64,000 bases of DNA, taken from the NCBI GenBank assembly GCA_030706405.1, contig JAUZOO010000015.1, forward strand, positions 1-64,000. Direction: 5' to 3'. This DNA is from Bacteroidota bacterium. Its GTDB lineage: Bacteria; Bacteroidota; Bacteroidia; Bacteroidales; JAAUTT01. Position numbers and translations under genes: made by a program. Under the pieces are notes generated by a model that ran no database searches, was not told the origin of the DNA, and saw nothing but the letters and a program-made list of their open reading frames with translations. The first letter of the stretch is position 1. Every line of letters starts with the position of its first letter. This document shows positions 45,958 to 49,278 of the stretch, piece by piece.

Positions 45958-46722
45958 TTAATTTGTTTCCGTTTGTTTATCCGTCTGCAAAGTGTCGGAT
46001 TTCTTCTTTTTGTTTTCGGTACGGGTTTCAGTGGCGCGAGCGGTGGACATTGTAACCGAAATAAGTTCGTTCACAGCTTTCATATAATCCGCAAGCTTGG
46101 TGTTGGAGCTGTCGGCCGAATATTGCAGGTCGAGCAGCGTGAGCAACGACCGGATGGCATTAACCAGTAGCGGACGGGTTTCGTTGATGGTTGGGCCATC
46201 ACTATCGGGTCGGCTAACACTCGCATTGAAGGTTTGTTCGAAATCGTCCTGGGCCGAAGCCAATTCGTTTAACCATTCGTTAGCAGCCAGCAGAGCCAGT
46301 TCGGCAGAACATTTGTTATTTATCTCAGCAATCATGCTGGTGATGGCAGCAGTACCGGTCTGGTAGCCGCGCGATGGTGCACTCCAACCATGTTTACGGA
46401 TAATATCGGCCACACGCGTACCTGCTTCGTTCCAGCCTTTAGCAGGACGATGGCTGCAAGCTACAATGTAGTTGCGGAACCCCAGGAACGAAGTGCCGCG
46501 CAGTGCATCCTTTTGGGCCAACAGCTCGGTATACGGGTTTTTAGATTCGCGTTCAAAAGCCTTGCAAAAGGTATCGTATGCCGACGAATGCCGGGTGACG
46601 AACGGAGTAAAGATATGCTCTTCGGGTTCGTTAGCGATGGGCTCAAAAATTTTAACCAGGCGATGTCCAAATGTTTTTAATTGGTCGCTCGATAATAACG
46701 AGTAATTAAGGGAATCGATCAT
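45958..46722 (-). CDS. DUF6261 family protein
   Basis: A 254-aa protein starting MIDSLNYSLLSSDQLKTFG at 46720-46722; the upstream in-frame ATG adds 26 residues that look unlike the family. The helical body includes TPFVTRHSSAYDTFCKAFERE, RGTSFLGFRNYIVACSHRP and NAIRSLLTLLDLQYSADSS, as in DUF6261, a family known almost only from Bacteroidota and without assigned function. There is no signal peptide. The K/T/E-rich tail is disordered. The 41-bp tandem-repeat array begins 165 bases before its start codon. Confidence 0.8.
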   Translation of the reverse strand: MIDSLNYSLLSSDQLKTFGHRLVKIFEPIANEPEEHIFTPFVTRHSSAYDTFCKAFERESKNPYTELLAQKDALRGTSFLGFRNYIVACSHRPAKGWNEAGTRVADIIRKHGWSAPSRGYQTGTAAITSMIAEINNKCSAELALLAANEWLNELASAQDDFEQTFNASVSRPDSDGPTINETRPLLVNAIRSLLTLLDLQYSADSSNTKLADYMKAVNELISVTMSTARATETRTENKKKKSDTLQTDKQTETN

Positions 46723-47583
46723 AATTGTTGTTTTTAGAGTGAAAAAATAGTTAATGATTATTTTCGAAATTTTTTTTGGTTTGTTTTCAAGCATAAACAT
46801 AACGGGTGATTATTGCTTATGCCCGGTATTTTTACAAAATGGCAGGCCGTTTGCCTATGGGTATTACTATTACAAGATATTGCGTGGCGAAAAATTTCTT
46901 CCTCGTTGAAATGCAGGAAGGTATTCGGCGGTCAATTTTTATCTCGTTGAAATGCGGAGATATAATTGACGGTCAATTTTTATCCCGTTGAAATGCAGAG
47001 ACGAAATTGACGGTCAATTTTCATCCTGCAGAAATGCGGAGACATAATTGACGGCCAATTTTCATCTCGTTGAAATGCGGAGACGAAATTGACGGTCAGT
47101 TTTTATCCTGCAAAATTGCAGACACAAAATTGACGGCCGTTTTTCGCCCTGTCAAAATGCAGGAGCCCTAATCATTCGGTAAATAGTACTTAAAATATTA
47201 ATCATACAATCCGGAAAACAGTATTGGTGGCATTAAAATAACCAATGTTGCATTGCACCAATTAATTAAACTTTTAAAATTCCGACTTTGTTTATGGCGG
47301 ATAATTTTTTGTTAATTGAAATTAAACATTTTTTTTCTTATAATAAACATCTCTATTTCAAATTTCTAAAACTTTTTGAAAAAAAAGACGATGTATACCG
47401 AATCCGTTATGTCTAAATTAATTATTAATTAATTACTCCCGTTTAGTTTTGTGCTATTAACAACTTCTTTTACTGGTTTTAACTATGTTTTGTTTATATG
47501 TTTTATCCAAAACAGTCATGTGAAAAATCGTCTTAGAATGTTGCTAACTAAACCTAATTAATAATTATAAAAATCATTAAAAA
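46723..47583. other. 861-bp non-coding region with a 41-bp repeat array
   Basis: No gene is supported in this gap, which separates divergent DUF6261 and GH71/99-like genes. The repeat array covers 46888-47174. From 47175 to 47583 the sequence is AT-rich and contains a TAGTTTTG box at 47444-47451 that could be a -7 element for the lipoprotein gene, although no good -33 box is at the right distance. Confidence 0.6.
46888..47174. repeat. 41-bp tandem repeat array, seven units
   Basis: Units start at 46888, 46929, 46970, 47011, 47052, 47093 and 47134, each exactly 41 bases apart; the first and last are degenerate. Each has the core GTTGAAATGCGGAGA, or the variants with CTGCA. The unit junctions read AAATTGAC-G-GTCAATTT, a palindrome with a single central base, best kept at the third and fourth starts. 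41 is not a multiple of three, so the array is non-coding. There are no unique spacers, so it is not CRISPR. A possible older unit begins at 46847. Confidence 0.9.
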
Positions 47584-49278
47584 ATGAGAAGAATTGAAAC
47601 ATGGTTATTGGGAGTAATGCTCCTTGTAGCTGCCAGTTGTTCTAAAACCAATACTGTTGACAGTATGGAAAGTTCAGCAATGGGTAAAACAATGCTTAAA
47701 TCATCGGCCGTAGGCGATGTAGTCGGAAAAGTAACGGTAGGTTACCAGGGATGGTGGGACTGTGCCGGCAGTGGCTCACCTTTTAATTCGTGGCAGCACA
47801 TGAACCTCGAATGTTGGCCCGATGTACGCGAATATACCAACACGTATGGAGGATGTACGTTTAACCAGGCAGGCGTTCTTCAACCGGCATTCAATGGTAA
47901 TTTGGGCAATGGACAACCGGCAAAAATGTTCTCGTCGTGGAGTGACCAAACCGTTGACGTCCATTTTAAATGGATGAAACTTTACGGCATCGATTGTGCC
48001 GCTCAGCAACGCTTTGGAAGTGCCATTGTAGCCGGAGCCAAAAAAGATTTCTTCGACCAGATTCTGACCAAAGTGAAAACTTCGGCCGAAAAGTATGGTG
48101 TTAAATTTTACGTGATGTACGATTGCAGTGCAACCAACGCCATTGATACCGACTGGACAAATACGATTGTAAATACCTTGCACCTTACCTCGTCGTCGGC
48201 TTATGCCAAACAAAACGGCAAACCCGTTGTTGCCCTCTGGGGCGTTGGCAAAAGCGACCGCGGAAGTATTGCCGATTGGGTTGCCAAAATCAACTGGTTT
48301 AAGGCTCAGGGTTGTTATGTAATTGGTTGTCCGTTGCAGGGCTGGCGCAGCGGAACCGACATGTCGGCCTACAACGCTTGCGATATGATTATGCCCTGGA
48401 TGGTCGGAAAAACCTCTACGGCGAACTTCCAGGGTTGGTATACCGACGACCTGACGTATTGTAATGCTCACGCGCTCGATTACCAGGCCGATATCTATGC
48501 CGGTACATCTTTTTATAATACCGATGCTACCTGGGTGAAAAATAAAATTCCGCGTATGTACGGAAACTTTATGTGGCAGCAATTTTCGGCAGCCAAAAAT
48601 GCAGGTGTAAACAGCGTTTATATTTCGATGTTCGACGAGGCTCAGGAGGCTACCCAAATTTTTAAAACTGCCGAAGACGCTTCGATGATTCCTGCCGGGA
48701 ACTATTTTCTCACGCTCGATGCCGACGGTGTTCCCTGTTCTTCCGATTTTTATCTGCGTTTAACCAACGAAGGCGGAAAAATGATCAAGGGGTTAATCCC
48801 ATATCAGGAAACACACTCTACACCGTATACTAATTATCTGGACAGATGCGATGCCAATACCAGCTGGATTTCTGCAAACACATTGTCGGTGAATACCAGC
48901 GACAAGAAAGAGGGAACAGGCTGCCTTCAATCGGTAGGAAGTGGCACCGACGAGTTTAAGAAAGTATTTACCGCGTTTAACAGCGGTGCAACTGTTGGCA
49001 ATGGTTCGCTTCAGTTTTGGTATTATGTATCGGACGTTACCAAGTTAGGAACTTCCAACCAGGTGGAACTGGGTAGCGGCGGGGCTGCCGATACCAATGA
49101 GTACAACTGGAACATTGGTACGCTTGTTAATGGATGGAACCTTATTACCCTGAAGTTTAGCAATGCAGGTACAACTGGCGGAACTCCCAATCTGGGAGCA
49201 ATTAACTGGTTTCGTATTTACCATGCCAAAACCGCCAGCATAACTACCAAGGTGGATGCTATCCAGATATTACCATAA
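47584..49278 (+). CDS. Glycoside hydrolase family 71/99-like lipoprotein
   Basis: A 564-aa surface or periplasmic lipoprotein; the lipobox ends at C19 (LLVAASCSK). Residues about 48-385 form a TIM-barrel-type domain like the GH71/GH99-related proteins: VTVGYQGWWDCAGSG, HFKWMKLYGIDCAAQQRFG, KFYVMYDCS, QGWRSGTDMSAYNACD and YISMFDEAQEATQIF with candidate catalytic acids. GH71 and GH99 enzymes act on alpha-glucans and alpha-mannosides. The C-terminal 180 residues are beta-rich and look like a carbohydrate-binding module (SISTKVDAIQILP-type end). No SusC/SusD pair is nearby, so substrate is unknown. Confidence 0.82.
   Translation: MRRIETWLLGVMLLVAASCSKTNTVDSMESSAMGKTMLKSSAVGDVVGKVTVGYQGWWDCAGSGSPFNSWQHMNLECWPDVREYTNTYGGCTFNQAGVLQPAFNGNLGNGQPAKMFSSWSDQTVDVHFKWMKLYGIDCAAQQRFGSAIVAGAKKDFFDQILTKVKTSAEKYGVKFYVMYDCSATNAIDTDWTNTIVNTLHLTSSSAYAKQNGKPVVALWGVGKSDRGSIADWVAKINWFKAQGCYVIGCPLQGWRSGTDMSAYNACDMIMPWMVGKTSTANFQGWYTDDLTYCNAHALDYQADIYAGTSFYNTDATWVKNKIPRMYGNFMWQQFSAAKNAGVNSVYISMFDEAQEATQIFKTAEDASMIPAGNYFLTLDADGVPCSSDFYLRLTNEGGKMIKGLIPYQETHSTPYTNYLDRCDANTSWISANTLSVNTSDKKEGTGCLQSVGSGTDEFKKVFTAFNSGATVGNGSLQFWYYVSDVTKLGTSNQVELGSGGAADTNEYNWNIGTLVNGWNLITLKFSNAGTTGGTPNLGAINWFRIYHAKTASITTKVDAIQILP

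Follow-up and report, generated by a model that had tools for sequence, protein, structure and literature searches.

The DNA analysed here, referred to as the window, is a stretch of 64,000 nucleotides from a genome of the phylum Bacteroidota. It contains a tandem array of seven 41-bp units between two divergently oriented genes, one of which encodes a protein of the DUF6261 family, recognized at 67.5 bits against a Pfam cut-off of 27 and over the whole of the profile (positions 1-154). The locus is arranged as follows:

45958-46722, minus strand: gene of a DUF6261 (PF19775) protein of 254 aa, identified with Pfam
46723-46887, minus strand: spacer separating the DUF6261 start from the array, the expected place of the promoter
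46888-47174, no strand: the array, seven tandem units of 41 bp, each having two dyad axes, from repeat scan and unit alignment
46888-46928, no strand: unit 1, an edge variant with the inner inverted repeat CTTCCT..AGGAAG and diverged outer arms, from comparison of the units
46929-47133, no strand: units 2-6, the core, with the junction palindrome and the inner inverted repeat around GAAATGC / AAAATTGC
47134-47174, no strand: unit 7, a terminal variant, diverged apart from the shared lead-in GACACAnAATTGACGGCCGTTTT, from comparison with a second array
47584-49278, plus strand: right-hand divergent gene, 564 aa, no family assigned

The seven units claimed in the sequence-only reading were all confirmed at their starts (46888, 46929, 46970, 47011, 47052, 47093 and 47134) and follow one another without gaps. 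The self-identity of the array is 0.75 at a lag of 41 and 0.77 at a lag of 82, and its TRF score is 199-325. Stop codons occur in all six frames and no frame is open across the array, in agreement with its description as non-coding. A unit pattern that tolerates up to two mismatches matched the window six times, five of them within the array, compared with 0.79 matches expected; none of 100 shuffles reached six.

Two dyad axes, separated by about 20.5 bp, run through each unit. The palindrome that had been proposed for the unit junctions, AATTGAC-G-GTCAATT, is perfect at two of the six junctions (46964-46978 and 47005-47019) but one base off at two more and eroded at both ends. The second palindrome, CTGCA-AAAT-TGCAG, is perfect in the 47093 unit only. 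The dyad symmetry of the window unit exceeds that of letter shuffles (p = 0.027). About a quarter of the positions differ between units, for which reason the array cannot be regarded as freshly amplified and the earlier suggestion of a recent amplification does not fit.

The array is upstream of the DUF6261 gene, at a distance of 165 bp from the ATG at 46722 or of 87 bp from an alternative ATG at 46800. The right-hand gene yielded no match in Pfam, NCBIfam or the PDB; its previous label, "GH71/99-like", was not confirmed, and a tie of the array to this gene is not supported. Pfam scans of five neighbouring genes revealed no replication or partition gene, such that an iteron or replication origin, as had been considered, is not supported either.

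A second array of the same unit family occurs elsewhere in the genome, at C1:450685-451012, where it is flanked by genes for an ABC transporter and a DUF4407 protein. It consists of eight 41-bp units, the end ones diverged, and in the part examined for self-identity (L003:5727-6000) the value at lag 41 is 0.73. A unit model was derived from 13 units of the two arrays that it then scored; the 11 core-type units of both arrays obtained 43.8-59.5 bits with it. Over the 4.93-Mb genome it detected these two arrays, the best match outside them having E = 0.25. In both arrays GACACAnAATTGACGGCCGTTTT leads into the last unit (in the second array at L003:5973 = C1:450972), the last units being otherwise identical at 23 of 40 positions. 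This shared lead-in hints that the two arrays descend from a single one that had a defined end. Outside the arrays, the flanks of the two match one another no better than chance. The sequence-only reading had named occurrence of the same repeat at unrelated positions as evidence against its proposal, and this applies in part: there is one such copy, itself an array of the same class. DUF4407 is encoded in three of four congeners, there in other neighbourhoods, and no tandem repeats were found in the 4-kb DUF4407 loci of the congeners. On the same stretch as the second array, a SAM-II riboswitch (L003:1424-1483; 58.5 bits, gathering threshold 44) is located just upstream of a gene that reads by eye as S-adenosylmethionine synthetase.

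Within the searched collections, the letters of the unit were not found beyond this genome. Of 392 other genomes in the order, 25 gave weak single matches to a unit profile at E≤0.01; no 41-bp repeat surrounds these matches and, without 41-bp periodicity, they were treated as chance. The unit model had no match at E≤1e-4 in 394 other genomes of the phylum, and neither four congeners nor 94 other genomes of the order contained the array; in the four congeners no DUF6261 gene was seen either. One blastn match in another genome, within what reads as coding sequence, was likewise attributed to chance. A two-unit pattern had no match in GTDB contigs or viral contigs. A one-unit pattern had none in viral contigs and one in GTDB contigs, a lone match without repetition in a gammaproteobacterial MAG, which was rejected. 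A blastn search for the array in plasmids and phages found none. Judged by its letters only, the array would pass for a lineage-specific repeat. As to the expected recurrence of the array beside DUF6261 genes elsewhere, the architecture does recur, as described below, but the unit sequence does not.

A tandem-repeat scan of 877 kb of the window's genome disclosed further arrays with periods of 41-42 or 21 bp and different palindromes, one of them upstream of a second DUF6261 gene (L086:18152-18898). Some palindrome clusters obtained by an early cluster detection proved not to be arrays. Because the second DUF6261 gene of the genome was also preceded by an array, DUF6261 was searched across the order. 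PF19775 was present in 31 of 295 genomes, often in several copies (at least 12 in several genomes), and in none of 14 control genomes. Among the first 30 DUF6261 loci, 18 had an upstream array with a period of 41-43 bp, and each of the 17 arrays displayed had its own sequence. In the complete survey a TRF array with a period of 40-43 bp was found upstream of 48 of 75 DUF6261 loci of the order, a count that contains both L117 and L144, which are identical arrays at two places of one assembly. By contrast, the downstream flanks of the same genes contained an array in 3 of 73 cases, and 800-bp control stretches of same-order genomes in 0 of 73, the stretches L035-L060 among them being chance matches of the unit model and not a random draw. 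The association of DUF6261 genes with a phased upstream array is as good as certain.

For the survey, an array was called by TRF up to 800 bp upstream, with periods of 38-45 bp searched and only 40-43 bp observed, at 75 distinct DUF6261 loci having at least 400 bp of upstream DNA. These comprised 28 best matches per genome, 39 loci from 40 stretches picked before their flanks had been seen, 6 in the first 400 kb of genome G197, and 2, the window and L086, which had prompted the hypothesis. Left out were L113 and L152 (the places of L086 and L179), L121 (equal to L180) and L169 (less than 400 bp upstream); the uncorrected upstream tally, 49 of 76, still includes L121 and L144. The controls were downstream flanks, 800-bp stretches and genome tiles. 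Of the tiles of the window's genome, 5 of 1000 held an array, one of which was linked to DUF6261 and one of which had a period of 39 bp, a multiple of three. G197 is array-rich, as follows from the 23 of 500 tiles with an array in its 400 kb. L117 and L144 (G221 C1 and C7) also share the same DUF6261 score, as a result either of recent duplication or of assembly redundancy.

When any period of at least 10 bp was allowed, the best period was 40-43 bp or about two or three times this value in 50 of 51 upstream array regions (one locus counted twice). Most of the 27 loci without a TRF array show a weaker form of the same spacing: in 19 of them the best self-similarity lag was 40-43 bp, whereas 40 rounds of shuffling gave 4.25 such loci on average and never more than 10, and the downstream flanks gave 5 of 26. 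At one DUF6261 locus (L149:2367-3104, G033), an exception to the 40-43 bp rule, the upstream lag peak is 30, with 110 of 110 matches. The window's genome itself has five DUF6261 loci, three with a TRF array and two that peak at lag 42. In other orders and classes of the phylum, arrays with a period of 41, 42 or 84 bp occurred upstream of 9 of 16 loci, two of the nine (L209 and L215) being near-identical arrays of one genome, and downstream of 0 of 16. With its period of 41 bp and a distance of less than 800 bp to the DUF6261 start downstream of it, the feature in the window belongs to a widespread, apparently undescribed module that combines DUF6261 with a phased upstream array.

In Prevotella nigrescens FDAARGOS_1486 (NZ_CP082843.1), a 41-bp array is found at the start of a DUF6261 gene, the annotated start of which, inside the array, is probably too far upstream. 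A 120-bp repeat of 3.3 copies and 98% identity (L199:3198-3593) adjoins this array and gene, and genes of equal length (3669 bp) lie on both sides.

The distance from the end of an array to the DUF6261 start is 24-353 bp, with a median of 139 bp. The mean period is 41.49 bp, equivalent to 10.37 bp per turn if a unit spans four turns. Units within an array differ by 16.7% mismatches and 1.3% indels, and 27 of 47 arrays are without an indel. L144 was left out of these period and mismatch values as well as of the compensation and array-pair comparisons given below. Consensus units were more palindromic than letter shuffles in 25 of 49 arrays at p<0.05, a tally that still includes L121 and L144, and in 12 of 49 at p<0.01; the other 24 of 49 were not palindromic at p<0.05. 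In 17 arrays two dyads were callable; the distance between the two was 20.5-21 bp in 10 of these arrays, and in 6 of 9 and 1 of 2 when the cut-off was made stricter. These results support the earlier view of phased palindromic sites about four helical turns apart that are tied to the DUF6261 gene.

The letters of the arrays behave differently from their spacing. Only 1 of 1081 array pairs matched at E<1e-3. Even arrays whose linked proteins are 65-80% identical did not match (0 of 3 pairs), nor did those with proteins at 50-65% (0 of 5); these eight pairs share short stretches of 12-18 bases that fall short of the E<1e-3 threshold. Exceptions to this sequence turnover are arrays repeated within one genome (L117/L144 and L209/L215). 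Pooled compensatory changes in the palindromes numbered 29, not above the 24.5 (sd 3.9) of shuffles. Compensation at chance level fits protein sites better than hairpins, and it weakens the case for a strict maintenance of the palindromes. In the units of the window's genome, own arms paired no better than swapped arms in any of four groupings (p = 0.069, 0.62, 0.66 and 0.46). A unit hairpin selected as such was rejected on the swapped-arm test together with the compensatory changes. Between array and gene, the Bacteroidota promoter motif occurred 6 times in 7045 bp, compared with 4.6 times in shuffles, and is thus not enriched.

Arrays also exist away from DUF6261 genes. The window array has one such copy, the second array of its genome. 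An array before a DUF6261 gene of G197 (G197:3317-3573) has four more copies in G197 that are 77-91% identical; the 3 kb around each of these four, about 1.5 kb to either side, contain no DUF6261 gene. Once the arrays had been removed, the five copies showed no mutual match between their flanks at E≤0.01, although in one alignment (L252 with L254) the similarity had extended about 160 bp beyond the arrays. Among 28 unlinked arrays from sampled parts of two genomes, 5 matched a linked array of their own genome, whereas 0 matched a linked array of the other; as only ten linked arrays were available for comparison, the true share may be higher than 5 of 28. The 400 kb of G197 contain 20 arrays, 4 of them within 600 bp upstream of a DUF6261 gene. 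One G197 array that was counted as unlinked (L186:15853-16109) is situated about 1.5 kb upstream of a DUF6261 gene, and its unit resembles by eye an array directly before a DUF6261 gene in a related genome (L159). In the window's genome, an array at L101:795-935 (C15:240795-240935) has changing palindromes, TCCCACATGTGGGA, TCCACCACGGTGGA and TCCACCATCGTGGA, between GCCTGACTTTTTT spacers; it matches the DUF6261-linked L140 of the same genome over 22 bases, and its spacer motif is, by eye, common to L086.

A second gene family is associated with arrays of half this period. It was recognised through a gene that follows a 21-bp array in the window's genome and whose small product has a weak, sub-threshold fn3 match:

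L072:13092-13480 and L072:13553-14170 (C1:73092-74170): second-family locus in the window's genome

Relatives were found in 17 of 295 genomes of the order. Their loci (L222-L251) had an upstream array in 21 of 26 cases, with 21, 42, 63, 84 or 126 bp as the only best periods; 4 of the 30 loci were left out because they had less than 400 bp upstream, one of these with a 20-bp array. Downstream, 4 of 30 had an array, two of period 21. Because 21 is divisible by three, the possibility of coding was examined: the array regions had an open frame in 10 of 15 cases and none in 5 of 15, some of the spans running past the array, and these 21-bp arrays may be coding. A further 21-bp arrangement, the TTTCTTATAAGAAA palindromes at L096:8338-8539 (C15:148338-148539), has a DoxX-like gene on one side and, on the other, a gene pair that includes one for an ABC-3C CTD6/Mrr-type protein; the surrounding 20-kb stretch contains no DUF6261 gene.

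The DUF6261 protein itself offers few clues. Many members have, by eye, a Lys/Arg-rich C terminus. A single-sequence AlphaFold2 model was helical with a pLDDT of 43 and provided no trusted fold, and the best PDB profile match was a designed helical protein (E = 0.008), the others being weaker. DUF6261 had no PHROG, PADLOC or NCBIfam match. Relatives were detected neither in viral contigs (single-protein search) nor in phages (tblastn). In the CC-licensed papers searched, the family is named once, in unrelated work on daptomycin resistance in Streptococcus oralis (PMC10376253). No report of tandem or palindromic repeats in Bacteroidota was found in CC-licensed PubMed Central, a scope outside which most of the subscription literature falls; the portions of the REPIN/RAYT literature available there deal with known REP systems, related transposases or insertion sequences.

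From the arrangement of the sequences we infer that the array acts as double-stranded DNA, that DUF6261 binds to it and that the binding is autoregulatory. The reading that we prefer, with a probability of about 0.45, is that an oligomeric protein, most likely DUF6261, binds a DNA array whose sites are in phase with the helix and thereby regulates its own synthesis. The window array would then be the cis half of a two-part module, the other half of which would be the DUF6261 gene. Sites, often palindromic, would recur every 41-42 bp, that is, after about four turns at 10.4 bp per turn, and in some arrays a second palindrome would be placed midway, after two turns. Spacing by whole helical turns (two or four) in combination with free sequence argues for double-stranded DNA with the sites on one face, and sites aligned in this way would allow an oligomeric protein to bind the whole row and form a large nucleoprotein complex. 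DUF6261, as the likeliest binder, would control its own gene and would also occupy copies of its array elsewhere in the genome. In favour of DUF6261 is the position of the array beside the gene of what appears to be the natural candidate binder, a member of a diverse, multi-copy family. Arguing against the model are the occurrence of arrays that are not confined to DUF6261, the lack of palindromes in 24 of the 49 arrays and the non-enriched promoter motif.

An ordinary sequence-specific operator is hard to reconcile with the turnover of the letters, the main difficulty for such a reading; the turnover suggests recognition of geometry, very fast co-evolution or propagation of the repeats. As spacing is conserved and letters are not, recognition would have to rely largely on geometry or else specificity would have to co-evolve very fast. 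A bolder version, which we regard as doubtful, is that DUF6261 recognises, and perhaps builds or maintains, arrays by their geometry, such that each gene re-invents its array and seeds copies in the genome.

A selfish system similar to REPINs and RAYTs would account for the turnover by bursts of amplification, DUF6261 or a recruited factor amplifying the arrays, with the linked array as the source and the dispersed arrays as its non-autonomous offspring. The dispersed copies of linked arrays within the same genome (one for the window array, four for G197:3317-3573) point in this direction, as do the own-genome matches of the unlinked arrays (5 of 28, with 0 of 28 for the other genome), the flanks that cease to match once the arrays are cut off (except for the L252/L254 alignment) and the likeness of units within an array in contrast to the rare matches between loci. 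However, no transposase, nuclease or polymerase signature was found in the scanned DUF6261 proteins, the copies are few and diverged (77-91% identical), and pure amplification explains neither the fixed period of 41-42 bp nor the upstream bias; on the whole this scenario is unlikely. Neutral tandem slippage in roomy intergenic regions, with the link to DUF6261 brought about by array-rich genomes, could be read from the abundance of unlinked arrays in G197 (4 of its 20 arrays in 400 kb are linked), but it would not produce the difference between 48 of 75 upstream and 3 of 73 downstream regions of the same genes, nor a period confined to 40-43 bp across unrelated sequences and elsewhere in the phylum, and we consider it very improbable.

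The arrays could instead be transcribed as tandem hairpins that form the leader of the DUF6261 mRNA or a decoy for a protein. Both strands of both own-genome arrays of the window's unit family indeed fold with energies 4.6-5.6 sd below those of shuffles, but such values do not discriminate because any inverted-repeat array yields them. Among mismatches in the palindrome arms, G-T (92) does not exceed A-C (125) on the sense strand; this weak bias runs opposite to the expectation for RNA (p about 0.03, with cells that are not independent). Unit-level covariation is absent, the window array matched no Rfam family at gathering thresholds, and RNA would not require whole helical turns, which together make an RNA module improbable. 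Hardly probable at all is an array for partition, replication or chromosome organisation, comparable to iterons or a centromere. Its geometry of phased tandem sites resembles that of iterons or partition sites as generally known, but no gene for such a function is among the five neighbours scanned, a genome may contain several arrays of different sequence, and the assembly amounts to 4.9 Mb in 21 contigs.

The phased array with its candidate binder has counterparts among known systems. With REP/REPIN sequences and their RAYTs it has in common palindromic extragenic repeats, a dedicated gene and copies elsewhere in the genome. It differs from them in that DUF6261 was the only Pfam match in the two linked proteins scanned (2 of 2), with no match to an HuH transposase (TnpA-REP), and in that the repeats form strict 41-42 bp tandem arrays upstream of the gene with a unit sequence rarely common to different loci. 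Iterons and the cooperative operator arrays of plasmids and phages are helically phased tandem sites beside the gene of their binder, an arrangement much like the present one with its candidate binder; unlike iterons, the window array has no replication gene among the neighbours scanned, and the DUF6261 arrays occupy several loci per genome and differ in their sites from locus to locus. Like the present arrays, the BOX elements of Streptococcus pneumoniae consist of tandem core units between distinct end modules and are dispersed in intergenic DNA. BOX constitutes one sequence family, whereas the arrays described here keep their spacing but not their sequence and are linked to a gene family. 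CRISPR arrays are also regularly spaced and partly palindromic, but the window array has no unique spacers, since the whole 41-bp unit is repeated.

A cis-element that keeps its spacing and changes its letters escapes motif and homology searches, which is why modules of this type would be missed. The association opens a first experimental route to DUF6261, which occurs in multiple copies, has no known function and is predicted to bind DNA arrays. It also supplies natural pairs of protein and array with which to ask how a protein recognises repeated sites. If recognition, and perhaps maintenance, by geometry were true, these arrays together with the 21-bp arrays of the second family would represent protein-palindrome systems of a class that has no relation to RAYTs, CRISPR and known operators and in which the heritable signal lies in the spacing. 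Should DUF6261 spread the arrays, they would constitute a system that propagates repeats but has no recognisable transposase; should they be operators, DUF6261 would be a paralogous family with unusually large ones.
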